Virus record (IMG/VR): IMGVR_UViG_3300012919_000037
Coordinates: 1 to 24,930 of that record
DNA length: 24,930 nucleotides
Origin: a virus
Strand: one strand, 5' to 3'
Below the pieces are notes generated by a model. The model was not told where the DNA came from. It worked only from the letters and a program-made list of their open reading frames with translations, and did not search any database. The position numbers were made by a program, and so were the translations under genes. Shown here piece after piece: positions 3,173 through 17,771 of this stretch (position 1 is its first letter; each line of letters opens with the position of its first letter).

Positions 3173-3180
3173 TATTTATT
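3173..3180 (-). promoter_or_regulatory. Late-promoter-like AATAAATA 5 nt before the 699-aa gene
   Basis: AATAAATA overlaps the gp17 stop codon and is followed by only CATAC and then ATG. If used as a late promoter, the transcript would start at or next to the initiation codon. Confidence 0.4.
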
Positions 3181-4774
3181 ATCCGTATAGGTTTGCAAAT
3201 ATAGGCATTGGTGTGGTTAATTCGCTGGATCTATCCGTCCATTTTTCGAATATTTTAGGGTCAAAATCCGCTAATACTTTCATCATTCTAGTCATCAATA
3301 AACAAGAACTTACTAGATCGTCGTGTTGTCCTGGTTTTGCTTTATAACTCATGCCCGTTGCAACGAAGTCCTTTAACTCTGATATTAATAATTTAGAATT
3401 GATCCTCATTTTCCCACTTTCGACAAGTTCTTTAAATTTCGTACAAGCGTCGATTTTGTGTTTTGCCGTGGTGTTAAAGCCTCTTCTAAACTTACGTCTG
3501 TGTCCTTTTCTTATAGGTTCACTTAAAAACATACCAACAATATTTTCTTCGCCAATATCCATAACTCTCATAAGAGCGGCTTCACCTATTGTGTTATTTT
3601 CCATACTATAAAATACTTGTGGTGTTGCGGTTGAATCTTTTTCCATTATCGAATCGTGTATGTGCTTGTTAATACTTTGTAAAACTCTTACCTGTTGATT
3701 CATTGGTGTCATGTTGTGGTGCCATTCTGCAACCTGTTCAAATGATGGTAACTCGAATACTTGTATGGCCGCGAAATCTCCGCCTGTTCCCATACTAGGA
3801 TCGAGACTTGTTAGATATGTCATTCCCGGCACAGGACGTTTGAACCATCTTACTTGTCCTGTTGTTTCCACAGGAGACGTACCTTCCATCTCTGCTAAAG
3901 TTACACTGTTAATTAATGTTTCGTCAAAGATTAAGAATTCACATTCGTGTTCCCTTCTAAATCTTTCTTCACCTATTCTGGATCTTTCTTGGTCTGCCCA
4001 TGAATCATCTCTGTCTGGATGTTCGCTCCAATGAGCCTTCATAGCATAGAAACCGTTTGTACCTACAATTTTGTCATTGCCATATTCATCAAATCTTTTA
4101 TTTGCTTCTTTCCAGATTAACGCAAATTGGTCTTCGTCACTGTTTGGTGTTGAAGTAATTAAGCATTTACCTCCAGTTGACAAAGTAGGAGATAGTGAAG
4201 TCCAAAACTCAGATGCTTTTTCAGGTGGTTGCACGAATGCAAACTCATCACAATATATCATTGTTAAGGACATACCCCGTCCAGTGTTTTCAGTTGTAGT
4301 GGTTGCCATTATTTTAGAACCATTATCAAATTCTATTGAGTTTCTATTGTATTGTGTAACACCTGCTTTAATCCAACCAGGCAACATTTCGTAAGCATAA
4401 CGCACCCTTGACATAATGTCCGATGCACCTGCGTATTTGTGTGCCGCGATTAGTATTTGTGAATCTGGTTTAAACATAGCATACCATATTAGGTATCCTG
4501 ATGCACAGGTAGTTTTTCCTGTTTGTCTTGGTAACATTGAAATAGAAAATCTATGGTCGTTGTATGCTTCTATCAATCTTTTTTGATATGGGTAAGGCTT
4601 GAAAGGCATCTCACCTTTTGTAGGATGTTGTATCCTCATGAAGTTTTCCATGAAGAACAAAGGTCCAGTTTTTTCGTGCATACACTTTTCAAGTTGTAAA
4701 ACTTGTTCTTTAGTGTATTTGTGCTTTTTGTTCGCTTTTTTAATCTGTTGCGAATCTAAACTTACATACGCCAT
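3179..4774 (-). CDS. 17: Terminase large subunit (gp17)
   Basis: 531 aa, typical for T4 gp17-type motors. The N-terminal ATPase has Walker A PRQTGKTT (residues 82-89), Walker B MIYCDE (172-177, D176 and E177) and the coupling motif TSTPN (207-211). The C-terminal RNase-H-like headful nuclease has its acidic residues at D325 (SLDPS), E392 (MEN) and D485/D486 (HDD), all present, so the enzyme should be intact. It docks on the portal, translocates DNA into the prohead and cuts the concatemer. Its small-subunit partner gp16 is 2.8 kb upstream with four other genes between them, unlike the adjacent 16-17 of T4. No Shine-Dalgarno; ATTAAATA lies 7 nt before ATG. Confidence 0.97.
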   Translation of the reverse strand: MAYVSLDSQQIKKANKKHKYTKEQVLQLEKCMHEKTGPLFFMENFMRIQHPTKGEMPFKPYPYQKRLIEAYNDHRFSISMLPRQTGKTTCASGYLIWYAMFKPDSQILIAAHKYAGASDIMSRVRYAYEMLPGWIKAGVTQYNRNSIEFDNGSKIMATTTTENTGRGMSLTMIYCDEFAFVQPPEKASEFWTSLSPTLSTGGKCLITSTPNSDEDQFALIWKEANKRFDEYGNDKIVGTNGFYAMKAHWSEHPDRDDSWADQERSRIGEERFRREHECEFLIFDETLINSVTLAEMEGTSPVETTGQVRWFKRPVPGMTYLTSLDPSMGTGGDFAAIQVFELPSFEQVAEWHHNMTPMNQQVRVLQSINKHIHDSIMEKDSTATPQVFYSMENNTIGEAALMRVMDIGEENIVGMFLSEPIRKGHRRKFRRGFNTTAKHKIDACTKFKELVESGKMRINSKLLISELKDFVATGMSYKAKPGQHDDLVSSCLLMTRMMKVLADFDPKIFEKWTDRSSELTTPMPIFANLYG

Positions 4775-4781
4775 AGTAAAG

Positions 4782-4789
4782 TATTTAAT
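4782..4789 (-). promoter_or_regulatory. Late-promoter-like ATTAAATA 7 nt before gp17
   Basis: ATTAAATA is followed by CTTTACT and the gp17 ATG in a 38-bp gap that has no Shine-Dalgarno. The position fits the recurring TAAATA-to-start spacing seen at seven other genes here. Confidence 0.4.
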
Positions 4790-4812
4790 TGATTTTGAGG
4801 GGTATTAAAGAC

Positions 4813-6027
4813 TTATTTTGCTTCTTTGTCTTTAACGGCTTTTTTCATTGGTTCTTTTTTATTGCCGTCTTTGTCCATATCTAAAAAGTCAGGCTTTGCT
4901 TTTTTTGCCTCTGCTTGATATGTTTTTTTAAAGTCTTCGTATTGTGTTCTTAATGAATTAGATAATTCTTCTTCTGAAATTTTATCTTCAACTGCAAGTG
5001 GATTATCGCCTGGATATTCTTTTCTTACTTGTTGCTTTTGTTTGTTAGCACCACCTGAGTGTACATTTACCAAAGTATCAACGTCTTGAACTTTTTCATT
5101 AGGTTCATTGTCAAAAGTTTCGTCTTGTTTTTCTTCGTCTGGTTTTGTAACCATGTTTCTGTACATTGCCATTTCGTCACCATCGGTTTCTGGTGCATCC
5201 ATTTGTTTATTCAATTCGCCTGGATCCATTTCTGAACCTGGTTTTGGTTCCATACTTGGCATTTCAGCACCCATTGGTTGGATACCTGCTAATTTTAAAA
5301 TTTGCATCATCATTCCTGCTTCTTCAGGAGAATCAGTTTTAATTTGGATTGCTTCTTTAATCTCTTTTTTGTGTTTTGTTTCCATAGTGTTTGTATTTAC
5401 CTGTTCAAAATCAGAATCTTTTAATGTGTACTCCTGATCTCCAACTTTAAATTTATCTCCTGCCTTCATACCAGCCGCTTTTGCTTTCTGCACGGCTTGA
5501 GCGAACTCATTGCCCTCGTCTGCAGGTTGTTCTGAGTCCATTGCAGGCTCCATATCAGGTTTTCTAGCACCATTGTCATCAAATTCGTCTTGTATCATTT
5601 GCATGGCAGTTTCTATTTCATATGATCTAGGAAAAGGTGCTTTTGCTTTTTCCATGTCCATTGCTTTTAACACTTGATCTTTTGGCATATCTAAATCGCC
5701 GTCATCGTTGATATATTGACCAACAACTTCTTGGGCACCAATGTGTATGTCACTCATTCCGCCTTCGTTAGTTTCGTCTTCTTTTTTAGCCATTTTTGTT
5801 GCAGTTGCATACATTACTGCTTTGGCATCATCTCCATATCGTTTCTCAAAGCCTTCTTTGTCTTTTTTCATAGACTTAACAATTTTTTCTTTTTTGTTTT
5901 CTTCACCTTGTGATAAAGGTCTTTCCGTAACCGGATTAGTTGCTTCTACTGATCTGATTGCTTTTTCAACTTCAGGACTTTTGTTTGCAATTTCTTGTAG
6001 TTTTTTTAAAACGTCGATCATTTCCAT
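4813..6027 (-). CDS. Acidic, low-complexity hypothetical protein (possible head-core or packaging-associated protein)
   Basis: 404 aa dominated by Glu, Asp, Lys, Met and Gln, with no membrane segment or catalytic motif recognised. Residues ~40-80 contain a Lys-rich stretch followed by RYGDDAKAVMYATATKMAKK, which looks like a small helical DNA- or protein-binding motif found in phage hypothetical proteins. Around residue 240 is a helix ending MMMQILKLAGI. Much of the C-terminal half appears disordered, and the protein ends with a basic Lys-rich tail. An AAGGA lies 7 nt before the ATG, and the preceding 197-aa gene stops 2 nt before the start, so translation is probably coupled. Position beside gp17 and composition suggest a scaffold or internal protein, by inference only. 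Confidence 0.65.
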   Translation of the reverse strand: MEMIDVLKKLQEIANKSPEVEKAIRSVEATNPVTERPLSQGEENKKEKIVKSMKKDKEGFEKRYGDDAKAVMYATATKMAKKEDETNEGGMSDIHIGAQEVVGQYINDDGDLDMPKDQVLKAMDMEKAKAPFPRSYEIETAMQMIQDEFDDNGARKPDMEPAMDSEQPADEGNEFAQAVQKAKAAGMKAGDKFKVGDQEYTLKDSDFEQVNTNTMETKHKKEIKEAIQIKTDSPEEAGMMMQILKLAGIQPMGAEMPSMEPKPGSEMDPGELNKQMDAPETDGDEMAMYRNMVTKPDEEKQDETFDNEPNEKVQDVDTLVNVHSGGANKQKQQVRKEYPGDNPLAVEDKISEEELSNSLRTQYEDFKKTYQAEAKKAKPDFLDMDKDGNKKEPMKKAVKDKEAK

Positions 6028-6029
6028 AA

Positions 6030-6623
6030 TTATTTCCTTTTTGGATCAGGATGAGGATTAGTTGATTTTGTCAAAGGTGATTCTGCCGGAGCATCTTCTT
6101 TGCTTTGAATATTTTCTTTTTCTTTTGGATGATCGTTTTTTTCTTTGTCTTTTAGTAATTCTTTAAGCAAACTCATGTTTGCTTTTGTAGAGTGGAATTC
6201 TTCGCCTTTTACTTTAGGTGCGTCCTTGTATTCTAAGTCAAGTAATTTGTTTTTGTATTCTGAATTTTTTGCAACTTGCATTTGATCCTGATATTCCTCT
6301 GTTGGTTCACCAGGTTTTCTCACTACAACGTGTGCTGGAGAAATGTTCATGTAATCTGCTATGTACTCTTTCATTTCTCTTACAGATGCTGGATAGTTCG
6401 TGCTAACGTCAAAAATTGTTACAGCCTCATTTGACAATGCAGGAAAGTCTAAAGGCATACTTTGGATTGGAGTTTTCTTACCTGCAGACATTTTTGCTAC
6501 TTCAAATTTCTGCAACGCAGTTTCTAACCTATTAGCATCTATATCCTTAGGTTCGCCTGCTATTTTTATTTTGTAGTCATATGACTTAACTGATTCTGTA
6601 AAATACTCTTTAAACGTGCTCAT
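6030..6623 (-). CDS. Hypothetical protein with a capsid-targeting-like N-terminus
   Basis: 197 aa. It begins MSTFKEYFTES, which resembles the T4 capsid-targeting peptide of internal head proteins (MKTYQEFIAEA from memory): polar start, aromatic, Glu, hydrophobics, then Glu plus a small residue where the prohead protease would cut. Residues ~15-105 look folded (YKIKIAGEPKDIDANRLETAL..., with a later VSTNYPASVREMKEYIADYM segment). The last ~60 residues are Lys/Glu/Pro-rich and probably disordered. No enzyme motif is visible. It shares a transcription unit with the acidic 404-aa protein and gp17. No Shine-Dalgarno; ACTAAATA lies 8 nt before the ATG. Real gene, function unknown. Confidence 0.75.
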   Translation of the reverse strand: MSTFKEYFTESVKSYDYKIKIAGEPKDIDANRLETALQKFEVAKMSAGKKTPIQSMPLDFPALSNEAVTIFDVSTNYPASVREMKEYIADYMNISPAHVVVRKPGEPTEEYQDQMQVAKNSEYKNKLLDLEYKDAPKVKGEEFHSTKANMSLLKELLKDKEKNDHPKEKENIQSKEDAPAESPLTKSTNPHPDPKRK

Positions 6624-6631
6624 ATTAGTAT

Positions 6632-6639
6632 TATTTAGT
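6632..6639 (-). promoter_or_regulatory. Late-promoter-like ACTAAATA 8 nt before the 197-aa gene
   Basis: ACTAAATA includes CTAAATA, a late-type variant I recall as proposed for marine T4-like cyanophages. It lies in the 31-bp gap after the 2OG-oxygenase-like gene and ends 8 nt before the ATG. Confidence 0.4.
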
Positions 6640-6654
6640 CTTTTGAATCACTTA

Positions 6655-7380
6655 TTAGTCTATGTTGATTACGCCGCCTTGCTGTATTTTCTCTAATGTG
6701 TGTTTGCTAGGAGCACCTGTTATACGTAAAGAATAGCGTCTATACCTACTGCAATTAGCGGTTCCGTGAGGTACGTTTTTGTCGTATGCTATTGTATCAC
6801 CTGCTTTCCATTGTGTTATCACTCTATTCCCCCATTGTAGCAGTTGTCCTGGCTCCCAATCCTGTAAATGTATTATAATCCTTGCAAGTTCTTTGACTCC
6901 ATATCCGCTAGGATGTCCGTCCATTGTATCCACGTGATATGTTTCAAAATTACCCACGTTTTTTTCCATTATAATTGGTTGCGGTTCGTCTGCCCACTCA
7001 AACCAATCAACAATTTTACATAAAGTAGGATGTTTTTCAGGTTTGACTACTTCCTTGAAACCAACATGATCCATACCTCGCACTTCTTGTTCATGTAGCC
7101 ACCATGCCCCATACAATACTCCAATATCGTTAGGGTGCATATTCCGAGATTTTTCTCTAACAAACGGAAAAATTTCTTTTGTTATATCTGTTTTCCATCT
7201 AAATTTAAGTTTGTCATCTATACCAGGATAGTTTGAATCATCTCGCCATTTGTCAAAATGGTAGTTGCTTTTTGAATCTAAATAATCCAACCAACTAGGG
7301 TAATTGTAGCACTCATGCGTAACCGCAAGGTGATGATCATCAGGTAGTTTGGGAATCTCATTTACGTATTTTTTACTCAT
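6655..7380 (-). CDS. 2-oxoglutarate/Fe(II)-dependent oxygenase-like protein
   Basis: 241 aa. The C-terminal half has a double-stranded beta-helix signature: HVD at residues 149-151 and a distal H205 (NVPHGT) would form the iron-binding H-x-D...H triad, and the arginines in RYRRYSLRITG just after it could bind the 2-oxoglutarate carboxylate. This resembles aspartyl/asparaginyl hydroxylase-like oxygenases, common as accessory genes in marine myoviruses. The substrate is unknown. The start at 7380 is chosen because its ATG overlaps the upstream TGA as ATGA, indicating coupling to the membrane-protein gene; a longer frame to 7425 would run into that gene. The pair lies between the two terminase subunit genes and looks like an inserted accessory cassette. 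Confidence 0.7.
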   Translation of the reverse strand: MSKKYVNEIPKLPDDHHLAVTHECYNYPSWLDYLDSKSNYHFDKWRDDSNYPGIDDKLKFRWKTDITKEIFPFVREKSRNMHPNDIGVLYGAWWLHEQEVRGMDHVGFKEVVKPEKHPTLCKIVDWFEWADEPQPIIMEKNVGNFETYHVDTMDGHPSGYGVKELARIIIHLQDWEPGQLLQWGNRVITQWKAGDTIAYDKNVPHGTANCSRYRRYSLRITGAPSKHTLEKIQQGGVINID

Positions 7381-7613
7381 TTGACGTAATTTTTTTTCCA
7401 GATAGAATGAAGTACGTAGAACCAAACTCCATTTATAGAAGGTTCAATCAATGCAACTGCACCAGCCTCCCATAAACTTGCTCCAGTAAGCACACTAACA
7501 ACTGTCATAGCAATTACGATATGTCCTAGTGTGTATATTAATGCTAACATGATGCTTGAACCGGAAATCAGTTTCTTAAAAGCACCCTGTATACCGTGGG
7601 TGAATTCTGTCAT
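7377..7613 (-). CDS. Small DUF2061-like membrane protein
   Basis: 78 aa with one clear long hydrophobic segment at about residues 19-42 (IMLALIYTLGHIVIAMTVVSVL) and a second weaker one towards the C-terminus. The end, INGVWFYVLHSIWKKN, matches the pattern of DUF2061 proteins, which finish with an aromatic-aromatic-x-x-His-x-x-x-Trp motif. It is predicted to sit in the host inner membrane; the family has no established function. A strong AAGGAG precedes the ATG, inside the end of the gp16 gene, and the downstream oxygenase overlaps it by ATGA. The strong ribosome site contrasts with most neighbours and fits a separately acquired gene. Confidence 0.65.
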   Translation of the reverse strand: MTEFTHGIQGAFKKLISGSSIMLALIYTLGHIVIAMTVVSVLTGASLWEAGAVALIEPSINGVWFYVLHSIWKKNYVK

Positions 7614-7617
7614 AAAT

Positions 7618-8163
7618 TTACTCCTTGCTTTTTTTAATTGTACTATCTTTTTCTTCAGTACGCAAGAGTTTTTTCATGAGTTCATTCCTGTCTGTGACAA
7701 CAAAACCATCCTGTTCTTCCATGGCTGGTCCGTCGTTATTGGTTTGATCTATTTTTTGTTTTTTAAGTTGAAGTTCTACCATTTTTAATTTTTTATCAAT
7801 CTTGTTTGATTTAGCATCAATGGCATTTCTTAACATTGTACTTGCAACCTCAAATATCCTACCAGAATATCTAGAGTCTACATTCATGCCCAAATCCATT
7901 AGGTTTTTGTAGGATTCTTCCGCTTCAACAGACAATTTATCAAGTTCTAAATCTGACAATTCTCCTAGACCTTTTACTTGTGGTAAAGCGGCCGCAATCT
8001 TGTCAAATTCTGCATATGTTTTTTCCAATGCTTTTTGTGTTTGTGGATCAACATTTTTTTGTGCAGGTTTACCATTTGCTTTGTCTTTTTCTTTTTTGTC
8101 TACCTGTGCAAATGCTTCTTTGACATTTGGTAAATTTAAAATGTCTTCTAATTTCTTTGTCAT
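7618..8163 (-). CDS. 16: Terminase small subunit (gp16)
   Basis: 181 aa, close to T4 gp16 (164 aa). The central helical region, with DSRYSGRIFEVASTMLRNAI followed by a KKLKMVELQLKKQK helix, corresponds to the helical hairpin/coiled-coil oligomerisation core of gp16 (T4 has a similar MEVFATLMGQM region). The N-terminus (KLEDILNLPNV) also resembles the family start. gp16 rings regulate gp17 ATPase and initiate packaging. The C-terminus is Lys/Glu-rich. It starts 4 nt after the gp4 stop and has no obvious Shine-Dalgarno, so re-initiation from gp4 translation is likely. Confidence 0.8.
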   Translation of the reverse strand: MTKKLEDILNLPNVKEAFAQVDKKEKDKANGKPAQKNVDPQTQKALEKTYAEFDKIAAALPQVKGLGELSDLELDKLSVEAEESYKNLMDLGMNVDSRYSGRIFEVASTMLRNAIDAKSNKIDKKLKMVELQLKKQKIDQTNNDGPAMEEQDGFVVTDRNELMKKLLRTEEKDSTIKKSKE

Positions 8164-8167
8164 ACTA

Positions 8168-8617
8168 CTACTTACGCGATCCTGAGTGAAATAATTGGTC
8201 TTCTGATATTACTCTAAAACGTATTTTTTGTTGTTTACAATATGCGTTGGCCGCCTCCCACTTGCATTGATTTATTGCTACTTGTTTTCTTTTGCCTAAA
8301 CTTCTGCCTGCGGCTTCCATAGAGATTTGACTTTTAGGTTTAACTTCAATTAACTCTGCGTGTTTCTTTCCCAACTTATCTTGATACACAACAAAAAAGT
8401 CTGGTACGTACACAGTATATTTTCCTGTGAAAGGATGTCTGTATGGTATCTTGATACTTTCACTTGCCCATTTGGCAACGTTAGGATGTTCGTCACATAA
8501 ACGCATGAATGCTTGTTCCCAACTTGATCTGTAAGTTGGCGTTTTTAATCCAATATATTTTTCTGGAAATTTTGGATTAAACTTTCCCTTTGCGAATTTA
8601 GGTAATCTTGGATTCAT
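8168..8617 (-). CDS. 4: Head completion protein (gp4/gp50-like, TnsA-type nuclease fold)
   Basis: 149 aa, the same size as T4 gp4 (about 150 aa). The residues E34 (SSWEQ), PD at 72-73 (VPDFF) and E91-V-K93 (IEVKPK) form the E...PD...ExK pattern of the TnsA/PD-(D/E)XK nuclease family to which gp4-type head completion proteins have been linked. The basic N-terminal arm (FAKGKFNPKFPEKYIG) is also typical. It acts after packaging to finish the head before tail joining. The ATG overlaps the upstream stop as TAATG, indicating coupled translation. Confidence 0.85.
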   Translation of the reverse strand: MNPRLPKFAKGKFNPKFPEKYIGLKTPTYRSSWEQAFMRLCDEHPNVAKWASESIKIPYRHPFTGKYTVYVPDFFVVYQDKLGKKHAELIEVKPKSQISMEAAGRSLGKRKQVAINQCKWEAANAYCKQQKIRFRVISEDQLFHSGSRK

Positions 8618-8994: not shown

Positions 8995-10388
8995 TATGTT
9001 GTTATACTCGCTTTCTCTGTTGCAACTGTAACATTTTGATTATCCCTGCCAACTTTTATATAACCTTTGTTAACAAGTTTTCTTATGTCAGTAGTTACCT
9101 TTGTTCTGTAAACAGTTTTTACAGAGTCGGTTTGTGTGTTAAATTCTACATCGCTTTGTGCAACTGATAAACCTTTTCTCGAACCTATATCTTTATAGTA
9201 GATACCTGCCGCAACTTGATCTCTTACTGTTGTGTTATTTGAAACTAATCTAAACACTTCGTCTGCTGTTAAAAAATCAACTGAATTTGGAGTGTTGTTT
9301 ATTATTGTTGCATTTTTCTTTTCGTCATCTGATAAAGCAGTATCAACAGCAATAGCAGTTGCCAATCCTGTACCCACAATTATATCGCCAACTTGTGATC
9401 CTGTGCCACCTGTTGCTGTTTTTACAACTTCTTCTTTTATTATTCCTTTTAATTCTTGTTTAACATCTTTTGCTTTTTTCTTTTTAATTTTATTGGCAGT
9501 GTTTATTCCTGATAATATTGCACCAAGATAGTTTCCTGACCTCGCCGCACTTAGAACTGAACCCACTCCATCAATAATACCACCAGGTCCGAAAATACTA
9601 TTTCCTGTACCACCAAACACTGTTAAAGGTGAAGGTTCTTTATCATAGTGTAATTTTGCAAAACCAAATTTGCCCATCTCTTTTACAATGCCTGTGTCGT
9701 ACACAACAGTTTCGTAAAAAACTTGCATCTGATTTTGTAATATTCCTGCGCCATCACCTGCATCTAAATTGTCGTGACTAAAAGATCCTATTCTTGGATT
9801 GACTAAAGTAAATGATGTAAATCTTTGTTTTTGTAATGTAAAAATTTGTATGCTTCTTAGATATGGCTGACGTCTTGCTTTTGGTGTGTCCATGCCGTAT
9901 CTATTTGCAACTCTTGATTTGCTGTTATCATACATATCATCACGGCCATTTAAAACATAATCTTCTATAGATAAACCTTTACTATCTGCTATTTCATATT
10001 CATAATATTTTTTCCAAAAAGCATTTACAGTATCGGCATGGTCGTCATGAAAACTTATTACTATAGGTTGATATCCAATTCTTGTACCAACATATGTTTT
10101 TTTGTTATATTGATTTTTTTCTTCAACATTGAAATCGTATTTTGGAAGGTCACAAGCCTTCACAAGCATATTAAGTTCGTATTTTTCTTCTTTAGAAAAT
10201 TCAGTAGTACCAGATCCACCAGCACTCATTGATCCTTCGTTTATATCAAAATATACATGAAACAGGAACTTCTGTTTCGGCATGAGTTTATGATTGTCAG
10301 CAATATAGAGTTGCGAGGCATGACGGTAATCCTTCATACCTGGAAGGCCTGATGTGAATCCTTTTAAAAAATCATTTATACTTGGCAT
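8994..10388 (-). CDS. Tube-fold baseplate protein (gp48/gp54-like tail tube cap or initiator)
   Basis: 464 aa from the ATG at 10388 (MPSINDFLKGF). Residues ~40-140 (KFLFHVYFDIN..., LVKACDLPKYDF, YQPIVISFHDD, NAFWKKYYEYEIAD) have the pattern of T4-type tail-tube-fold proteins: a soluble beta domain, the binding loop and a helix before the last strand. Two T4 proteins with this fold, gp48 and gp54, cap the baseplate and nucleate the gp19 tube; which one this represents cannot be decided by eye. The ~250-330 region is Gly/Ala/Lys-rich and probably flexible. A GTG in frame at 10409 is rejected because it sits in the terminator T-tract. Confidence 0.65.
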   Translation of the reverse strand: MPSINDFLKGFTSGLPGMKDYRHASQLYIADNHKLMPKQKFLFHVYFDINEGSMSAGGSGTTEFSKEEKYELNMLVKACDLPKYDFNVEEKNQYNKKTYVGTRIGYQPIVISFHDDHADTVNAFWKKYYEYEIADSKGLSIEDYVLNGRDDMYDNSKSRVANRYGMDTPKARRQPYLRSIQIFTLQKQRFTSFTLVNPRIGSFSHDNLDAGDGAGILQNQMQVFYETVVYDTGIVKEMGKFGFAKLHYDKEPSPLTVFGGTGNSIFGPGGIIDGVGSVLSAARSGNYLGAILSGINTANKIKKKKAKDVKQELKGIIKEEVVKTATGGTGSQVGDIIVGTGLATAIAVDTALSDDEKKNATIINNTPNSVDFLTADEVFRLVSNNTTVRDQVAAGIYYKDIGSRKGLSVAQSDVEFNTQTDSVKTVYRTKVTTDIRKLVNKGYIKVGRDNQNVTVATEKASITT

Positions 10389-10396
10389 TGTATAGA

Positions 10397-10404
10397 TATT
10401 TATG
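10397..10404 (-). promoter_or_regulatory. Late-promoter motif CATAAATA between the gp19 terminator and the baseplate gene
   Basis: CATAAATA (seven of eight to TATAAATA) ends 8 nt before the ATG at 10388. It is the only promoter-like element seen between the terminator T-tract (to 10410) and the start codon, so this gene must be expressed either from here with a leader of about 3 nt or by read-through. Confidence 0.6.
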
Positions 10405-10409
10405 GCCAC

Positions 10410-10436
10410 AAAAAAAGCGCCATATAAAGGCGCTTT
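10410..10436 (-). terminator. Rho-independent terminator after tail tube gene 19
   Basis: On the minus strand an 8-bp stem (AAAGCGCC with GGCGCTTT, 10414-10421 and 10429-10436) closes a 7-nt loop and runs into a T-tract at 10416-10410. It lies 26 nt after the gp19 stop and is the only clear intrinsic terminator found in the window. It would isolate abundant gp19 transcription from the baseplate gene. Confidence 0.85.
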
Positions 10437-10461
10437 CCTTGTTTATAATTGCTTACGAAAC

Positions 10462-11088: not shown

Positions 11089-11098
11089 GTGTTTCTCC

Positions 11099-11106
11099 TA
11101 TTTACC
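11099..11106 (-). promoter_or_regulatory. Possible weak late motif GGTAAATA before gp19
   Basis: GGTAAATA matches the late consensus only in its TAAATA core and ends 10 nt before the gp19 ATG, with GGAG directly after it. It lies between the gp18 stop and gp19. Weak evidence; gp19 may simply be co-transcribed with gp18. Confidence 0.25.
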
Positions 11107-11111
11107 TAAAA

Positions 11112-14100
11112 TTAGTTCCCTAATTTTGCAATTTCTCCTGTGTTTTTAATTCTCAACGGTATGTAAATAAACTCAACTGATTTAACTGGTTCAATTGCTA
11201 TATCAACATACAACTCGTTTCTATCTATTCTAGTTGGAGTGTTGTTTGTTTCATCACAAACTACCAAGAAGTCAAATAATGCTCTTTGACCAACTAGTTC
11301 TAGTAAGAACGATTCAATTGCTTGTTTGATTTCGTTTCTAGTCAATTCATCGTTTGGTTCAAAGATGAACGGTTTTCCAATAGCATCTAATTGAGTTCTT
11401 AGATAAACTGCTAATCTAGAAACGTTAATTCTGTCAAGTGCCGAACTTGCAGATGTTTTAGTTAAGTTACCGAAGTTTACAATTCCTGCACCTGCAAAGA
11501 ATGTAATTGGGTTAACTTTTACTGTGTGCATCGCATCTCTGACACTTTCAGTTAGTGAAACTGTGTTAAACTCACCAGTTGATGCTTTAATATATCCAAC
11601 TGATGTTGCATTATCAACAATACCTCTTCTTGTACCTGCCGGAGCAAACCAAGGGAAAGCAATATTGTCGTTGTTCGCCAACACTCTCATAATCATATGT
11701 GATGGTGGAACAACAATATTCATTCCAGTATTGTCTGTTGCTAAACCTGATGGATAAAACACACCTAAGTGATCACTTGAACTTATTAGTCCGTCTTCAC
11801 CGTTATCAGTTGCGCCTGCTGTGTTATTTGCCCAAGACTGAATTTCTGTTGCAGTAGATCCTAATCTCATTGGAGTATCACCTACAACAAATGATGTGTT
11901 GTTTCTGTCAGTGTTTAAGTTTATCATGTTACTAATCAATTCTGGATATCCAGGTGTTGCAATTACGTTGAATCCTCTTTGGTCTTCTCTAATTGCTTGG
12001 TTAGTATCAATCTCTGATTTTAATTGTTGTACAACAACTTTTCTTTGTGCTTTTCTTCCAAATACGCCTGAACCATCTGCGTTGTTGTTAGATTTAGTTA
12101 CCCATCTGTCTGGGTAGTAACCTGCAACAGATTCATTGCTGAATCTTATGTTTCCTAATCCTGATGATCCTGAACTTGGATATTTTGTTGTTGTAATATA
12201 ACTGTTTTTGTACTCTTTAACGTTGTATCCAGAACGTCTTGTGTTCCATAGTAATATACCATTTGGATAATTTGCTGGATCAGGTGCATCTGGATCTAAG
12301 AAGTTATCACTTAAAAGATCTTTAATTGAACTTCCTGTTCCTGCTCCAGTATTTCCTGATGCATTTCTTTCGTTTTGAGTATGATATCTTGCGTCTGCAA
12401 ATACAACTCCGTCTTCTGTTGTTTGGTCTGTTTTGTCAACTAGTTCCCATGCCGCACCTGTTGTAGTTACTGCTACACTGTTAGATGTGTTAGATGAACT
12501 TATTGTTGCAGAAGTGTTGTATTTGTAAAGTTTTGGATAATTTTCTAAATCACTTGTATCAATCCATAAGTCTTTGTCAACTAGTGGAGTACCATCTGAC
12601 TGAGTAGTTGGTGCTGTTGCACTAAATTGTGGACCATTTGGATCTGTTGTACTGTAAGCATTTGCGTATCCAATGAAAGTAGTTCCGTTGTGTACCATAA
12701 TATCTGCTTCGTCAGTATTTGTATTGTACCATAATGCTCCGTCCGCCGGTTCATTAGATGGTGAATTAACTCCTGCTGTGTAACTTAATCTCTTCCAGTT
12801 AGAAGCCATTATGTCATTACCTACAGTTGAGTCTTCCGAATCACCTGTTGGTGTCACATACAAGTTGTCAATTAATGTTGTTGAATTTGCTGTGTAAGTT
12901 CCGTAAGCATGAGCAGTTGCGGTACTGAAACCAGCATCTGCTAATGGTGTTCCTGATGTTTCGTTCATTCTAAACTCACCACCAAGTTTGTGTTTGATTC
13001 TGATTGCACCTGCAAACTCACCTGAAGTAACTATGTCTGCTACTAGGTTAGTATGAGCACCACCACTTGATGGAGTGTTAAATGCAGTAACAAAGTCTTC
13101 TGAGTCTGCCGCAGTTGATCCATCTCCTGATTGTACAGTTATTGTTCTAGCACTGTCTAATGCTGATTGGTTCTTGATTGACTCTCTTACTGTGAAAGTT
13201 TCGTTGTGTGTGAAACTTGGATTTGTATTTTTAGAAATAATAACAGTTTCTCCACCTTCGTATCTAAACATTTGGAAGTCACCTAAGTTACCACTTGAGT
13301 TAGCACTGTCAACTGAACTTTCAGTTATGTTGAATTGTGTGTATAACGCACCAACTGATATACCTGTACCACCGTTTGTTGGATCGATGTTGTATATCGC
13401 CGCGTTGTGTGTTGCATACAATGGTGCTGACACAGTTGAAAATGTTCCTGATGCTGTGCTGTAAAGTTTAGCACTTATGTTCGCACCTGAATTTGCAGAA
13501 GTTGTTTTAAACCAAACTGATCCAGTTGGTCTATTGTCGTCTGCTGTTTTCCAAGTTGGTCTGCTAGTGTGAGCCGCTTGTAAGAATTGAGCACCTCTGT
13601 AAACACCTGAAGTAAATCCTAAATCTGCTAAAAGTGTTCCTGATACTGCTTCAACTCTAATTGAGTTACCACCTGCTATCGAACTGTCTCCAAGTCCAAT
13701 ACCACTGTGGAATAATTCTAGTTGTGATGTTGTTGCATTTACTGAAGCACTAACACCATCTATTCCTGCATTGTTAATGTCTGTTGCAGTTTGTGATAAT
13801 GTTGTACTTGTAGTTGTTACAGTTATGCCATTTATTTTAATTGCATGGCCCGCCGTAACTGATGCTGATGCAGTTGATTTCAATACTGGATGTGATCTAT
13901 GCCAAGCATTAGAACCTAATTGCACCCAAGTACCACTTGAATTTTTCAAGTAAATTTTGTTTGAAACGTGTGTTGTGTTGATCGCATAATCACCATTTAC
14001 GCCAACTGAAGTTTTAGGTGCTCCTGTTGAAGTGTTACCTACTAGATCATTTACACTTGTAATCAATATTGGAGTTATAGTTGTAAATTTTTGATCTGTT

Positions 14101-14552
14101 TGTGACCATTCAAATATTCCATATTTGCTTGTTGCAAGGTCAAACCAATATGTTCCATTTGCTGGTGCTGAAGTTGGTGCTGATGCACTTCCTACTAATT
14201 CGCTCATGTCTACGTTTGCTCTTAAAACGTATGCTCTGTTGGCAATTCCTAAAAATGAATATGCCGATTGTAATCCCCATTCATTAAGTTCGTAACCATG
14301 AATTGGGTTTCCTGAAGCGTCTTTGTAAAACTTTGGATCTCCAAAAGTTTCTGTTAATTCTCTTTGTGATGTAAGCAAATATACTGTATTTGCAGTTGCT
14401 GATTGTGTACCAGCCGCAGTTCCGTTGCCAGAACCTTTTGTTTTATCTGTCTGTGATGCTACTATAAAAAGTGGAGTTGTACCCGCATCTGATGGTACAT
14501 AAAAACTCTCGTTTACTACTGAAACTTCTACTCCTGGTGATGTTAAAGCCAT
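11112..14552 (-). CDS. 18: Tail sheath protein (gp18) with a very large insertion
   Basis: 1146 aa, against 659 in T4. Residues 1-118 match the sheath N-terminus (SPGVEVSVVNES, then ELTETFGDP and AYSFLGIANRAYVLRANVD), and residues ~770-1146 match the conserved C-terminal core (FNVIATPGYPEL, HMIMRVLANND, INVSRLAVYLRTQLD, ending YIPLRIKNTGEI) that contacts the tube and forms the contractile lattice. Residues ~120-770 are an insertion of Ser/Thr/Gly-rich beta modules expected on the outer tail surface. They include at least five short Gly-aromatic modules and two ~100-aa domains that end alike (SGTxLADxGF). Expression is strongly signalled: exact TATAAATA 40 nt upstream and AGGAG 8 nt before ATG. 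Confidence 0.95.
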   Translation of the reverse strand: MALTSPGVEVSVVNESFYVPSDAGTTPLFIVASQTDKTKGSGNGTAAGTQSATANTVYLLTSQRELTETFGDPKFYKDASGNPIHGYELNEWGLQSAYSFLGIANRAYVLRANVDMSELVGSASAPTSAPANGTYWFDLATSKYGIFEWSQTDQKFTTITPILITSVNDLVGNTSTGAPKTSVGVNGDYAINTTHVSNKIYLKNSSGTWVQLGSNAWHRSHPVLKSTASASVTAGHAIKINGITVTTTSTTLSQTATDINNAGIDGVSASVNATTSQLELFHSGIGLGDSSIAGGNSIRVEAVSGTLLADLGFTSGVYRGAQFLQAAHTSRPTWKTADDNRPTGSVWFKTTSANSGANISAKLYSTASGTFSTVSAPLYATHNAAIYNIDPTNGGTGISVGALYTQFNITESSVDSANSSGNLGDFQMFRYEGGETVIISKNTNPSFTHNETFTVRESIKNQSALDSARTITVQSGDGSTAADSEDFVTAFNTPSSGGAHTNLVADIVTSGEFAGAIRIKHKLGGEFRMNETSGTPLADAGFSTATAHAYGTYTANSTTLIDNLYVTPTGDSEDSTVGNDIMASNWKRLSYTAGVNSPSNEPADGALWYNTNTDEADIMVHNGTTFIGYANAYSTTDPNGPQFSATAPTTQSDGTPLVDKDLWIDTSDLENYPKLYKYNTSATISSSNTSNSVAVTTTGAAWELVDKTDQTTEDGVVFADARYHTQNERNASGNTGAGTGSSIKDLLSDNFLDPDAPDPANYPNGILLWNTRRSGYNVKEYKNSYITTTKYPSSGSSGLGNIRFSNESVAGYYPDRWVTKSNNNADGSGVFGRKAQRKVVVQQLKSEIDTNQAIREDQRGFNVIATPGYPELISNMINLNTDRNNTSFVVGDTPMRLGSTATEIQSWANNTAGATDNGEDGLISSSDHLGVFYPSGLATDNTGMNIVVPPSHMIMRVLANNDNIAFPWFAPAGTRRGIVDNATSVGYIKASTGEFNTVSLTESVRDAMHTVKVNPITFFAGAGIVNFGNLTKTSASSALDRINVSRLAVYLRTQLDAIGKPFIFEPNDELTRNEIKQAIESFLLELVGQRALFDFLVVCDETNNTPTRIDRNELYVDIAIEPVKSVEFIYIPLRIKNTGEIAKLGN
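12885..13871 (-). repeat. Duplicated ~100-aa domain within the gp18 insertion
   Basis: Two divergent copies, at residues ~228-321 (13590-13871) and ~448-556 (12885-13211). Both have a middle strand region followed by a matching end, SGTLLADLGFTSGVYRG and SGTPLADAGFSTATAHAYG. The first copy also has INGITVTTTSTTLSQTATDI and SASVNATTSQLELF, which resemble the flagellin/hook-type IN motif. The module at ~330-380 lies between them. Confidence 0.5.
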
Positions 14553-14591
14553 TTACGTGTCTCCTTGCAAGTTTATACGTATTAACAAGTA

Positions 14592-14599
14592 TATTTATA
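14592..14599 (-). promoter_or_regulatory. Exact T4 late promoter TATAAATA for the tail sheath gene
   Basis: TATAAATA on the minus strand is a perfect match to the T4 late consensus. Predicted initiation about 6 nt downstream gives a leader of ~33 nt that carries the AGGAG (14561-14565) of gp18. It is the only exact copy noticed in the window and precedes the most abundant tail protein. Confidence 0.8.
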
Positions 14600-14640
14600 A
14601 TTATTTTGCGTTTATACGACTTAATGTTCGTAATTTTGGT

Positions 14641-14652
14641 GCCTATATAGGC
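14641..14652. repeat. 12-bp perfect palindrome in the gp18/HNH-like divergent region
   Basis: GCCTATATAGGC reads the same on both strands. It ends 2 bp before the CGTAAATA motif of the plus-strand HNH-like gene, where it could be an operator or recognition site. The 115-bp divergent gap also holds two copies of GTTTATACG, near 14571 and 14610. Confidence 0.35.
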
Positions 14653-14654
14653 GA

Positions 14655-14662
14655 CGTAAATA
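14655..14662 (+). promoter_or_regulatory. Late-promoter-like CGTAAATA 5 nt before the HNH-like gene
   Basis: CGTAAATA is followed by CAGTT and the ATG at 14668. Only the TAAATA core matches the T4 late consensus, but the spacing equals that at the 699-aa gene and gp13. It supports the start at 14668 rather than a longer frame from 14557. Confidence 0.35.
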
Positions 14663-14667
14663 CAGTT

Positions 14668-15027
14668 ATGAATATAGGTACCAGACCATTATGTACACAA
14701 TGTAAGGCAAAGCCACGTGCCTACGGCTATAAAAAAGGAACTAAAATTTATTGGCGTAGACTGTGTGATACCTGTATAAGGAAGCAGAAAAATAAGAAAA
14801 TAGGTGGTGTAACACCTTTGCAAAGGTCTGGATACAAAAAATTGAAGAAGTGTGAAATGTGCGGATTTAAGGCGCAAAGTCCAGGTCAACTAGATGTGCT
14901 ATTTGTTGACGGAAATTTAAGGAATACAACGTCTTCAAATTTGAAAACGGTTTGTGCTAACTGTCAAAGGTTGGGTAGTATCCGTAGACTTGGATGGCGG
15001 GTTGGTGATCTCGTTGCTGACGATTAA
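14668..15027 (+). CDS. Four-CxxC zinc-binding, degenerate HNH-endonuclease-like protein
   Basis: 119 aa and basic. CxxC pairs lie at C9/C12, C33/C36, C62/C65 and C96/C99, enough for two zinc sites. The C-terminal half follows the HNH layout (CEMCG, then LDVLFVDGNLRNTTSSNL, then CANCQ), but the positions normally occupied by the HNH histidines are changed: no HH before the DG turn, and Q100 replaces His after the last CxxC. It is therefore probably a non-cleaving DNA- or RNA-binding relative, or uses other ligands. Start 14668 is chosen because the upstream frame is promoter-like DNA lacking conserved sequence. It is alone on the plus strand, and its last 93 nt overlap the dNMP kinase gene tail to tail. 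Confidence 0.7.
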   Translation: MNIGTRPLCTQCKAKPRAYGYKKGTKIYWRRLCDTCIRKQKNKKIGGVTPLQRSGYKKLKKCEMCGFKAQSPGQLDVLFVDGNLRNTTSSNLKTVCANCQRLGSIRRLGWRVGDLVADD

Positions 15028-15576
15028 GTTATCAACATTTTCAAAAAGTTGTTCTTTTGTACCACTGTTTTCTATAACAAAATCAAAGTCGCTATTCAAC
15101 CAATCCCATTCTGACCTATGAGCACCACGTTCTTGCATCTGTTTTTGTGTGGGTAATTCCCCTCTTTTTACACAGATAATTTTGCCGCCGTGTGCCCTGA
15201 TTGTTTTAATTTCATTAATGAATCTTGTATCTGATATAACAGTATTTTGACCTTTATATCTTCCTATGCAACTGTCCACCCAAATTGCATCATACATTTG
15301 TCCACGCATTACTTCAGTACCAAAGTATTGTAATACCCAACGCGGAGTAATAGGTTTGCCAAATTTTTCACTCCAATATTTGTCTGGTTGTTCTCTCCAA
15401 TGTCTGCTAGAAGACGTATTACCTTCCAACATTTCTCTATCCCAATTAAACATTGAACTTACTGCATCTTTTAAACTTTTTGCAAAACTATCACGTATAA
15501 AGCCATGTTTACTGACTAATCTTTCCGCAACTGTGTCTTTCCCAGAACCTATAAGTCCTACAATTCCTAATAGCAT
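14935..15576 (-). CDS. 1: Deoxynucleoside monophosphate kinase (gp1-like)
   Basis: 213 aa, against 241 in T4 gp1. A P-loop GLIGSGKDT (residues 7-15) matches the T4 gp1 GVKRSGKDT. ISDTRFINEIKTIRAHGGKIICVKR corresponds to the conserved DTR/arginine segment, and the C-terminal DFVIENSGTKEQLFENV to the family end. The enzyme phosphorylates dNMPs using ATP to feed phage DNA synthesis. The last 30 residues, Ser/Thr/Pro-rich and not kinase-like, are encoded opposite the end of the HNH-like gene and look like an extension created by the overlap. The gene has its own sigma70-type promoter with TATAAT 6 nt before the ATG and no Shine-Dalgarno, suggesting early, leaderless expression. Confidence 0.85.
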   Translation of the reverse strand: MLLGIVGLIGSGKDTVAERLVSKHGFIRDSFAKSLKDAVSSMFNWDREMLEGNTSSSRHWREQPDKYWSEKFGKPITPRWVLQYFGTEVMRGQMYDAIWVDSCIGRYKGQNTVISDTRFINEIKTIRAHGGKIICVKRGELPTQKQMQERGAHRSEWDWLNSDFDFVIENSGTKEQLFENVDNLIVSNEITNPPSKSTDTTQPLTVSTNRFQI

Positions 15577-15582
15577 TACACT

Positions 15583-15611
15583 ATTATACTATTTTTTTAA
15601 ACGTTTTTCAA
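15583..15611 (-). promoter_or_regulatory. Sigma70-type promoter directly abutting the dNMP kinase start codon
   Basis: TTGAAA (15606-15611), a 17-bp spacer and TATAAT (15583-15588), inside the end of the 59-aa gene. Only 6 nt separate the -10 box from ATG, so +1 would be at or beside the A of ATG. Five of six and six of six matches at the ideal spacing make this a strong host-type promoter. Confidence 0.7.
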
Positions 15612-15768
15612 TGACTTTTTTGGCTTCTTGGACAGCACCTAAAATACTTTTACGTATGTCTTTTTTCCTGTGTTTTAATGCCGCAATACTCATGTTTTCC
15701 AGATCGTTGACTATCTGTTCTAGTTCGTCTATATTGCATTCAGAGTATTTTTTATACCTATTATCCAT
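15589..15768 (-). CDS. Small basic helical hypothetical protein
   Basis: 59 aa from the ATG at 15768; a TTG six bases upstream is also in frame. It is charged and almost wholly helical: NIDELEQIVNDLENMSIAALK, then a Lys/Arg-rich second helix ending VIEKRLKK. The pattern suggests a two-helix hairpin that could dimerise or bind nucleic acid. Its end carries the dNMP kinase promoter. TTTAAATA lies 6 nt before ATG, with no Shine-Dalgarno. The function is unknown; coding status is supported by composition, fit between gp13 and the kinase, and the shared start architecture. Confidence 0.6.
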   Translation of the reverse strand: MDNRYKKYSECNIDELEQIVNDLENMSIAALKHRKKDIRKSILGAVQEAKKVIEKRLKK

Positions 15769-15774
15769 CAACAA

Positions 15775-15782
15775 TATTTAAA
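15775..15782 (-). promoter_or_regulatory. Late-promoter-like TTTAAATA 6 nt before the 59-aa gene
   Basis: TTTAAATA is followed by TTGTTG and ATG in the 30-bp gap after gp13. It matches the TAAATA core only. Confidence 0.3.
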
Positions 15783-15798
15783 ATGATTTGATTATGAA

Positions 15799-16560
15799 TT
15801 AACCAATAACAAAACTATGTGGAGTGCCACCTTCTGCAAAATTGTTCACTTCTGCATCTAGTTTTTCCATCTCTTGCATACCTTGATTTTTAAGGTCTGC
15901 ACCGTTCAATGATGTTCCGCCTTGTGGTCCAGCGATTGTGTTGAACTTAGATCTTGCTTCACCTAACATTACTTTTGAAACTGCTAGTGTGTAATCTCTG
16001 ATCCATGGTTTTGCGTATATGTCTTTGAACAAAGTTATATCAGGTCTAAAATTGTCAGTGTGCATCAATACTGTTTCTATGTCGGATCTAGGTTTTTGTG
16101 TAATAGTTAATTTTTTAGTTGCAACGTCAAAATGAAATTGAATAAATGAACCAAATAACTTTCCTACTAATTCTTGGTATGAAGCAAACGCATAGTAAGT
16201 CGCAAGTCCACCAGTCGCACCTGCTCTCAAAAGATATGTGTTTGTATATGCTAAATTAAATGGTTCAAATAATGTTCCACCTTCGCCACCTTCTGTTCTA
16301 GATCCTACTGTACGTCTAAACAATTTTCTCACGTTAATTACTTCATCAGGCAAAATGTAAGTGTTCTGATTTTCCTGCAATTTCAAGAATCCATATGATT
16401 CTTCAACAGCATTTGAACTTCTTTGTCTATATCTGTTTATTGCTCTTTCCAGTGCTATTTCGTAGTGTTTAGGGTCTAATTCAACGTCAATCATGCCCTC
16501 ACCGAGGTTAGTTTTAACGTATTCGAATATTTCTTGTTGACCTGTTTGTAGTTCTGACAT
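15799..16560 (-). CDS. 13: Neck protein (gp13)
   Basis: 253 aa from the ATG at 16560 (MSELQTGQQEIFEYVKTNLG); T4 gp13 is 309. The segment VELDPKHYEIALERAINRYRQRSSNAVEESYGFLKL is the characteristic helical N-terminal region of gp13 in T4-like phages, followed by NVRKLFRR and a mixed beta region, then DYTLAVSKVMLGEARSKF, the conserved helix of the neck ring. It sits on the completed head with gp14 to form the tail-docking site. A second ATG 6 nt upstream (16566) overlaps the CATAAATA motif and is less likely if that motif is the promoter. Its partner gp14 is divergent. Confidence 0.85.
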   Translation of the reverse strand: MSELQTGQQEIFEYVKTNLGEGMIDVELDPKHYEIALERAINRYRQRSSNAVEESYGFLKLQENQNTYILPDEVINVRKLFRRTVGSRTEGGEGGTLFEPFNLAYTNTYLLRAGATGGLATYYAFASYQELVGKLFGSFIQFHFDVATKKLTITQKPRSDIETVLMHTDNFRPDITLFKDIYAKPWIRDYTLAVSKVMLGEARSKFNTIAGPQGGTSLNGADLKNQGMQEMEKLDAEVNNFAEGGTPHSFVIG

Positions 16561-16565
16561 ACTCA

Positions 16566-16573
16566 TATTTATG
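16566..16573 (-). promoter_or_regulatory. Late-promoter motif CATAAATA 5 nt before gp13
   Basis: CATAAATA is followed by TGAGT and ATG. It is paired back to back with an AATAAATA for gp14 on the other strand, 15 bp apart, in a 44-bp divergent gap. Confidence 0.55.
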
Positions 16574-16588
16574 TGATGACCCGCATTC

Positions 16589-16596
16589 AATAAATA
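16589..16596 (+). promoter_or_regulatory. Late-promoter motif AATAAATA 8 nt before gp14
   Basis: AATAAATA is followed by TGTATGCT and the ATG at 16605. No Shine-Dalgarno is present. An ATG at 16596 overlaps the motif itself and is not the preferred start. Confidence 0.55.
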
Positions 16597-16604
16597 TGTA
16601 TGCT

Positions 16605-17771
16605 ATGCCACGATTATCAATTTTTAAGCCGGAAAAGGGCAATGATTACAAGTTTTTTGATCGCAACATCAAAGAGATGTTTACGGTCGGAGGCACCGAT
16701 TTACACCTACACAAATACCTAGGTCCATACGATCAAGGTGATACACAAAAAGATGGTGACGCTTCACCTACGCAACCAAATTATGCAGGTAGCAATATCA
16801 ACGAAAGAACAATTCAAGATTTACTATTTTTAGAAAACAGAGATAGAAAATATGCATCTGATATCTATCAAATACGTGGTATCTATAATGTGCAAGATCA
16901 AGATTTTAACCTATCACAATTTGGTATGTTTTTGCAAAATGATACACTATTCTTAACAGTTCATTTAAATGATACAGTTGAAAGAATTGGCAGAAAACCA
17001 ATGTCTGGTGATGTAATTGAATTGCCTCACATGAAAGAAGATTACAGTTTAGACGAAACTATACCAATTGCACTAAAAAGATTTTATGTTGTGGAAGATG
17101 TTAACAGAGCGGCAGAAGGATTTTCACAAACTTGGTGGCCTCACTTATTGAGATTAAAAATGAAATCATTAGTAGATTCACAAGAATACAGAGATATATT
17201 GGGCGACGCTACAACAACAGGATCTTTAGCAAGTTACATGAGTACGTTTAACAAAGAAAAAGAAATTAATGACAAAATTGTTGAACAAGCAGAATCAGAT
17301 GCACCAAAATCTGGATTCAATTACAAACAATATTATGTACAACCAATCGACGAAAGAGGTAACATTAGAACAGACAACGTAAATTCAACAGATCCGGTCA
17401 GTGGTGATAAACCAATCAATGCAACAATTGACACACCGGCAAGTTCACATTATGGATTTTACTATGACGGTGATGGTGTTGCACCCAACGGAGAACCAGC
17501 AGGATTTGGCACGTCATTTCCTCAATCAAACGTTGAAAAAGGCGATTACTGGTTACGCACAGACTTTTTACCAACTAGATTATTTAGATATGATGGTACC
17601 AGATGGGTCAAGGTCGAGGACAATATAAGATTAACTACAACAAACAATGACAGTAGAAGCAACTTTAAAACAAGTTTTGTTAATAACACTGCATCAGACA
17701 CAATTAACGGACTTACAGTGGAACAGAGACAGTCATTATCAAATGCATTGAAACCAAAGGCTGACGATTAA
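16605..17771 (+). CDS. 14: Neck protein (gp14) with a C-terminal extension
   Basis: 388 aa, against 256 in T4. The start MPRLSIFKPEKGNDYKFFD fits the gp14 N-termini of marine T4-like phages. DFNLSQFGMFLQNDTLFLTV followed by PMSGDVIELPH aligns in order with the T4 gp14 segment FFSNFGMQVQDEVTLSI...PKEGDLIYFP. gp14 joins gp13 on the head portal for tail attachment. Residues ~240-388 are an extension absent from T4, containing a module at 294-338 (GDYWLRTDFLPTRLFRYDG then TRWVKVED) related to ones in gp15 and gp18. The gene is co-transcribed with gp15 through a TAATG overlap. Confidence 0.85.
   Translation: MPRLSIFKPEKGNDYKFFDRNIKEMFTVGGTDLHLHKYLGPYDQGDTQKDGDASPTQPNYAGSNINERTIQDLLFLENRDRKYASDIYQIRGIYNVQDQDFNLSQFGMFLQNDTLFLTVHLNDTVERIGRKPMSGDVIELPHMKEDYSLDETIPIALKRFYVVEDVNRAAEGFSQTWWPHLLRLKMKSLVDSQEYRDILGDATTTGSLASYMSTFNKEKEINDKIVEQAESDAPKSGFNYKQYYVQPIDERGNIRTDNVNSTDPVSGDKPINATIDTPASSHYGFYYDGDGVAPNGEPAGFGTSFPQSNVEKGDYWLRTDFLPTRLFRYDGTRWVKVEDNIRLTTTNNDSRSNFKTSFVNNTASDTINGLTVEQRQSLSNALKPKADD

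Follow-up and report, generated by a model that had tools for sequence, protein, structure and literature searches.

The IMG/VR virus record IMGVR_UViG_3300012919_000037, analyzed here as a whole (24,930 b; hereafter the window), carries 21 genes in our count. They match virion genes of the T4 superfamily, including those for TerL (gp17), a gp13-like head-tail adaptor (Ad2), the tail tube and its paralogue, a gp4-like head closure protein, and tail sheath/stabiliser proteins; a dNMP kinase gene is matched to the same superfamily. The isolates nearest in TerL are PA5oct-type Pseudomonas phages (54%), Sinorhizobium phage Phosso (48%), and Agrobacterium phage Atu_ph07 (47%). In eight of the 21 genes the hexamer TAAATA, the core of T4-type late promoters, ends 5-8 nucleotides (nt) upstream of the ATG (Table 1), vs 0.03-0.06 genes expected by chance (21 starts times four offsets, start codons taken as given). 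The hexamer is depleted in the window, with 17 sites on both strands vs 34.5 expected from dinucleotide shuffles. No Shine-Dalgarno (SD) sequence is visible upstream of any of the eight genes. A preliminary description of this DNA had drawn attention to these boxes and to the lack of AGGAG-like sequence before the same genes. Both observations held, and two of its gene names need replacing: for the 388-aa gene (labeled gp14) the match is to a virion structural protein PHROG, and for the 464-aa gene (labeled baseplate) to tail-tube PHROGs.

Table 1. Promoter, translation, and termination signals located in the window. Ortholog fractions for the close TAAATA boxes count distinct orthologs that keep the box 5-8 nt before the ATG.
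Feature	Positions	Strand	Context
SD AGGAGG of gp32-like gene	72..77	-	ATG 63; TAAATA further upstream at 134-139
TAAATA	3173..3178	-	5 nt before ATG 3167, 699-aa virion gene; 38/38
TAAATA	4782..4787	-	7 nt before ATG 4774, TerL (gp17); 61/61
TAAATA	6632..6637	-	8 nt before ATG 6623, 197-aa virion gene; 36/36
TAAGTA, one-base variant of TAAATA	8169..8174	-	5 nt before ATG 8163, 181-aa gene
TAAATA	10397..10402	-	8 nt before ATG 10388, second tail-tube-like gene (464 aa); 39/40
Intrinsic terminator, GCGCC hairpin and T-run, after gp19	10410..10440	-	-20.7 kcal/mol, z -3.55; ends shortly before the 464-aa gene's TAAATA
TAAATA followed directly by SD GGAG, before gp19	11095..11104	-	gp19 ATG 11088
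SD AAGGAG of gp18	14561..14566	-	an SD present in 43/43 orthologs
TAAATA, leadered kind	14592..14597	-	39 nt before gp18 ATG 14552
TAAATA	14657..14662	+	5 nt before ATG 14668, HNH-like gene, divergent from gp18; 54/58
Sigma70-type promoter TTGAAA-N17-TATAAT	15583..15611	-	ends 6 nt before dNMP kinase ATG 15576
TAAATA	15775..15780	-	6 nt before ATG 15768, 59-aa gene; 44/44
TAAATA	16566..16571	-	5 nt before ATG 16560, gp13-like (head-tail adaptor Ad2) gene; 28/28
TAAATA	16591..16596	+	8 nt before ATG 16605, 388-aa virion gene; 27/27
Sigma70-type promoter TTGATC-N17-TATAAT	19195..19223	+	ends 6 nt before NUDIX gene ATG 19230

The distance from the end of the box to the start codon (the offset) is strongly conserved. 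Relatives were retrieved by TerL (best 80 of 597 confirmed) and by gp18 (best 80 of 575), and 162 loci were profiled, among them redundant copies and three fragments of the window's record. Orthologs were located by tblastn in 159 loci and five large records; the ATG nearest the aligned start was taken, with no preference given to the motif, and rows were dropped if the alignment began after residue 12, if no ATG lay near the aligned start, or if 45 nt or less separated them from an end. TAAATA at 5-8 nt is kept in 327/332 distinct ortholog starts of the eight genes, a recount of an earlier figure that had preferred starts with the motif (327/334, with TerL at 61/62 and gp13 at 28/29). Where the offset slides among orthologs, it does so almost only inside the 5-8 range; in TerL it is 7 in 54 sequences, 8 in 5, 6 in one, and 5 in one. 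The 181-aa gene, which has the variant TAAGTA and looks translationally coupled in the window, nevertheless has TAAATA at 5-8 in 58/64 distinct orthologs. The gp13-like and 388-aa genes also have an earlier in-frame ATG that overlaps the box (TAAATATG, at 16566 and 16596, respectively) and is a second possible start.

The same spacing recurs across the relatives' genomes. The 162 loci contain 1654 TAAATA sites; when a frame of 50 codons or more is required, these give 919 site-ATG pairs in the 5-8 range. With identical pairs removed, 226 pairs remain at these offsets in the TerL set (819 sites) and 218 in the gp18 set (826 sites), and the two sets combined have a single pair each at offsets 4 and 9, with offsets 0-3 empty. 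In the large records, where any in-frame ATG in approximately the first quarter of each called gene was counted, TAAATA lies at 5-8 in 29/213 genes of G001, 21/142 of G002, 19/125 of G003, 19/106 of G004, and 13/62 of G006, or 101/648 when these five relatives are pooled. With the window, in which the simple gene caller drops one of the eight genes and leaves 7/21, the total is 108/669, and only one count falls at offsets 0-4 and one at 9. The sharp peak at this distance that the preliminary description had named as support for its claim is therefore present in all six records as well as among the orthologs. It is absent from T4-type phages analyzed as negative controls: regions of approximately 50 kb with virion genes have no gene at 5-8 in T4, PA5oct, Phosso, Atu_ph07, Syn9, KVP40, or vB_OspM_OC, and one in P-SSM2. 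Base composition was addressed with permuted hexamers, the best of which reached 14, 10, 6, 10, 5, and 3 genes in G001, G002, G003, G004, G006, and the window, i.e., at most about half of the TAAATA count, and the frequent best ones, ATAAAT and AAATAT, overlap the core. In every record but G004, TAAATA itself is the least frequent of the 15 permutations. Before out-of-frame ATGs inside the same genes it occurs at 5-8 in 9/8521 cases, vs 108 genes among 1563 in-frame early ATGs.

The geometry of the peak agrees with transcription initiation as described for T4. The T4 late box is reported to span -13 to -6 (PMC1524935), so that the sixth base after the box is +1 and offset 5 would correspond to a fully leaderless mRNA. 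Offsets below 5, which would place the ATG before +1, are nearly empty. At offset 5, a T directly precedes the ATG in 27/32 sites; at offset 8, the predicted -1 is a T in 20/23 and the predicted +1 is a purine in 19/23. Overall, the share of genes with T before the ATG is 70% in the close-TAAATA class, 23% in the SD class, and 43% among the others. Start codon usage differs as well: 114 ATG, 2 GTG, and 1 TTG in the close-TAAATA class vs 156 ATG, 20 GTG, and 20 TTG in a permissively chosen SD class. An SD is found in 0/108 genes with a close TAAATA vs 218/561 other genes, a difference that is partly geometric.

Phage start calling is error-prone, and the ATGs could have been mis-called, with translation beginning at a later ATG preceded by an SD; the 464-aa gene does have another in-frame ATG at codon 18 in 61/70 sequences. 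However, in the other nine of ten genes analyzed a second in-frame ATG within 20 codons is missing from most orthologs, and in all ten purifying selection acts on codons 2-9 much as it does on codons 10-21, with 2.7-4.9 times the synonymous changes expected (from pairwise counts, which are not independent events). Because this selection acts from codon 2, the predicted ATGs are taken as the real starts, and wholesale mis-calling appears most improbable.

Other genes are led by an SD sequence, and this too is conserved: it is found in 43/43 distinct orthologs of gp18, 26/26 of gp19, 16/16 of the gp32-like gene, and 35/39 of the 404-aa gene. The gp18 gene combines an SD with the same box placed farther away, 35-41 nt before the ATG in 42/43 orthologs and 29 nt in one. 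The gp19 gene had been described as lacking a close motif, but TAAATA is present 10 nt upstream of its start codon, the SD lying in between, and the box is found 10-16 nt before the ATG in orthologs. If this box were active, the SD would sit upstream of +1, and the conserved placement is unexplained. Genes are thus split between a fused promoter and an SD, which suggests two initiation modes, the choice between them being gene-specific and conserved. The preliminary description had proposed two such modes, and for these SD-led genes the proposal stands; it overlooked near-leaderless promoters of the sigma70 type, described below. Its corollary, that each gene has either a close TAAATA or an SD or coupling, fits gp18, gp19, and the gp32-like gene but fails for the 297-aa gene (1050, - strand), which has neither TAAATA nor SD in the window. 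Nor is a rule based on protein abundance clean, because the relatives' major capsid gene has the run GGGGAA, which fails the four-letter SD test.

Several features around the boxes are those of promoters. The core stands before virion genes, as expected of a T4-type late promoter. An intrinsic terminator lies just upstream of 13/108 close-TAAATA sites, compared with 0/239 SD genes, 1/267 others, and 0/30 genes of the sigma70 class (13/108 vs 1/506, Fisher 1e-9). All six clade records have a mild T-tract approximately 21 nt upstream of the box, in the -35 region, which persists when sites with terminators are left out; at -28/-27 from the box end the T frequency is 0.57/0.51 vs 0.28 (72 sequences distinct at residues 2-5), a mild enrichment with no clear box. 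G001, G002, and G003 encode a gp55-like late sigma factor (phrog_12791/phrog_234, E 1e-81 or better to the late-sigma PHROG), at L166:16869-17846, L183:11027-12004, and L174:3686-4663, respectively. This protein is approximately 326 aa long in the aligned reading and has an N-terminal extension of approximately 120 residues preceding its match to the short gp55 profile, conserved in 25 aligned sequences; its AlphaFold model (mean predicted local distance difference test score, 54.5) is too poor to characterise the extension.

In a scan of all hexamers by offset, TAAATA at 5, 6, and 8 ranked highest; ATAATA (offset 5) and TATAAT (offset 6) came next, and AAAGGA and AAGGAG (7-8) were likewise near the top. 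Across the six records, TATAAT is found at offsets 5-7 of 31 starts vs approximately 4 expected. A -35 box matching TTGACA at five or more of six positions accompanies 15/31 of them vs 1.1 in shuffled sequence, with a spacing of 17 in 14/15. To judge from these signals, this is a second near-leaderless class, new to this analysis and served by sigma70-type promoters. It includes the dNMP kinase gene in all six records and the NUDIX gene in five; both genes of the window belong to it, lack an SD, have the -10 box 6 nt before the ATG, and were missing from the preliminary list. If the TAAGTA variant is counted, near-leaderless architecture extends to 11/21 window genes; in G001 it covers 40/213.

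Considering this evidence, we think it highly probable that the close TAAATA boxes are late promoters fused to the start codon and that the genes behind them are translated from a 5'-terminal AUG, side by side with an SD-led mode. In this uncultured marine clade of the T4 superfamily, RNA polymerase directed by a gp55-like sigma factor would start approximately 6 nt downstream of the box, placing the mRNA 5' end at the AUG or 1-3 nt before it; T4 geometry predicts leaders of 0-3 nt. On such an mRNA the host ribosome would initiate at the 5'-terminal AUG without an SD. Sigma70-type promoters would be placed likewise before a smaller set of genes, and several high-copy proteins (sheath, tube, SSB) would use an SD instead, with a long leader where TAAATA is distant. 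What is observed is the geometry, the conservation, and the ATG preference; the 5' ends, the behaviour of the ribosome, the host, and any gain from the arrangement are matters of inference.

A number of observations weigh against this conclusion. The absence of an SD is partly forced, as the box occupies the position of the SD. Offsets 6 and 7 fit the signature of T at -1 and purine at +1 less cleanly, and initiation could slip by one base there. The large records are related, so their 108 genes are not independent (G001 alone contributes 29); nor are the 13 terminators, several of which belong to the same gene in different records, and the 15 good -35 boxes are inflated by orthologous copies (5 dNMP kinase, 3 NUDIX). 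A divergent neighbour precedes 27/108 genes, hardly more than the 58/267 in the class of other genes. The gp55 homologue was found in relatives only, the window being a fragment without gp55, and gp45 and gp33 homologues were not found in searches limited to a hidden Markov model from two sequences or to a single sequence; the profile PF02916 matched nowhere, in the controls either. Finally, a host-wide habit as the cause was considered and rejected: the profiled stretches of two metagenome-assembled genomes (MAGs) holding related TerL contigs (145 kb labeled Pelagibacter and 220 kb labeled Rickettsiales) have no clear leaderless peak, although contigs in MAGs may be misbinned. TATAAT at 5-7 occurs in 7 cases in the Pelagibacter-labeled stretch, too few to judge. 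The MAG labels of five related loci are Betaproteobacteria, Pelagibacter, Rickettsiales (twice), and Gammaproteobacteria.

Read-through mRNA could also serve 48/108 genes, those separated by no more than 25 nt from the end of a gene on the same strand; this too counts against the conclusion and bears on two other explanations. TAAATA could act in the RNA, as an A/U-rich, unstructured site for the ribosome or S1 on longer transcripts, and not as the promoter of that gene; A-rich start regions generally help initiation. We regard this as unlikely, since permutations of the same letters show far weaker enrichment unless they overlap the core, TAAATA is the rarest permutation in nearly all records, gp18 has the same box well upstream in addition to its SD, the box has a T-tract approximately 21 nt upstream and at some sites a terminator before it, and TATAAT shows the same geometry together with a -35 box mostly 17 nt upstream. 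Alternatively, the promoters could be real but serve mainly downstream cistrons, the first gene being translated from read-through mRNA and the position of the box simply saving space. The genome is compact, with many successive genes on the same strand, which would suit this explanation. However, genes behind a terminator or a divergent neighbour have no nearby same-strand source of such mRNA, the gp13-like gene and its divergent neighbour, the 388-aa gene, having start codons only approximately 45 bp apart; moreover, space saving leaves the near-empty offsets 0-4 and 9 and the scarcity of GTG and TTG starts unexplained. We give it equally little weight, and promoters fused to start codons account better for these observations.

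The clade shares with T4, whose late promoters depend on gp55, gp33, and gp45, the TAAATA core upstream of virion genes and a gp55-like late sigma factor. It differs in spacing: in a 49-kb structural region of T4, distances from box to ATG range from 9 to 46 nt and peak at 27-28, with one overlap at -1 and no case at 5-8. The full TATAAATA is present at 0-26% of clade sites vs 77% in T4, and T4 late promoters are described as having no conservation in the -35 region (PMC7892883), where the clade has its mild T-tract. Late promoters reported for cyanophages and KVP40 (NATAAATA, TATAAATA; PMC2984593) have the same core before late genes, but, as the counts for Syn9, KVP40, and P-SSM2 show, not the clade's spacing.

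A parallel is found in pelagimyophages. HTVC008M, which infects Pelagibacter, has 14 genes at 5-8 in its whole genome, 11 counts being at exactly 5; unlike the clade, it has a peak at 5 only and no TATAAT peak. Seven of the 11 offset-5 genes are neck, baseplate, or tail genes, encoding gp2, gp4, gp48, gp25, a baseplate initiator, gp3, and the tape-measure protein (the last also with an SD-like AGGA 11 nt before the ATG), and the other four are non-virion genes. The genes for gp18, gp19, gp23, and gp32 have SDs; gp14, gp16, gp17, and gp22 have neither signal. The HTVC008M counts for permutations that overlap the core are 10 and 8 genes, and the gp55 of this phage is 185 aa by annotated span. 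Mosig has one gene at 5-8 in 50 kb. Four sets of HTVC-like/Mosig-like contigs have 9, 14, 22, and 18 distinct pairs at exactly 5 and few or none at 3, 4, and 6; per TAAATA site, however, pairs at 5-8 are only moderately more frequent than for the top permutation in three of the sets, and in the fourth they are less frequent. One published attempt to identify pelagimyophage middle and late promoters is reported as unsuccessful (PMC7029224). Ribosomal protein S21 is annotated in HTVC008M (91228-91431, L200) and Mosig (9932-10141, L202). A phage-encoded S21 as a ribosome switch was dropped as a candidate for the clade, G001-G003 having no S21 family match.

In titles and abstract openings of the open-access literature we found no description of leaderless late genes for T4-superfamily or pelagimyophage genomes, and in the accessible text of open-access pelagiphage papers containing the word "leaderless" it occurs in a reference title only. 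The paper on phage AR9 calls phage transcripts "often leaderless," yet reports AR9 leaders of 26-491 nt. A precedent comes from mycobacteria, in which a 5'-terminal ATG or GTG is reported to suffice for leaderless initiation (PMC4633059). There, as in the clade, transcripts with a 5'-terminal start codon and no SD occur genome-wide beside SD genes; on the other hand, the mycobacterial case is described as shown by RNA-seq and ribosome profiling and includes GTG, whereas that of the clade is predicted, uses almost only ATG, and involves phage late promoters. This makes leaderless translation in the clade plausible without proving it.

In the eight T4-type control regions, which include that of T4 itself, a textbook system of late transcription, the late box is almost never this near the start codon. 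A widespread marine branch with the promoter welded to the start codon would offer a direct case, open to counting, in which the position of a promoter dictates how translation is initiated. Approximately a fifth to a half of clade genes should be read from near-leaderless mRNAs, which yields a simple prediction for metatranscriptome 5' ends and should improve gene-start and promoter calling in marine myophages. Much more tentatively, and with the balance somewhat against it, leaderless initiation may be a hard-wired, promoter-independent mode, common to host sigma70 and phage gp55 promoters, that separates virion proteins needed in few copies (terminase, neck, baseplate, tail parts) from the high-copy proteins led by an SD. 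A weaker form may have arisen separately in pelagimyophages, and late in infection 5'-AUG initiation may be favoured over host leadered mRNAs. The copy-number status of these virion proteins is presumed to be that of their T4 counterparts.

Rfam (gathering scores) and tRNA scans of the window found nothing, and the 1757-codon frame at 19655-24928, which reaches the window end, has no Pfam match. Three window genes, at 157-1050, 6655-7380, and 7377-7613 (297, 241, and 78 aa), are nearly private to this record, with 2, 3, and 1 matches vs approximately 100 for conserved neighbours, and conservation therefore says little about them; they look as if recently inserted between conserved virion genes. 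The HNH-like gene (14668-15027) is small, is flanked by gp18 and the dNMP kinase gene on the other strand, and has its own putative near-leaderless promoter, an arrangement seen in 103 loci or records, overlapping ones included.

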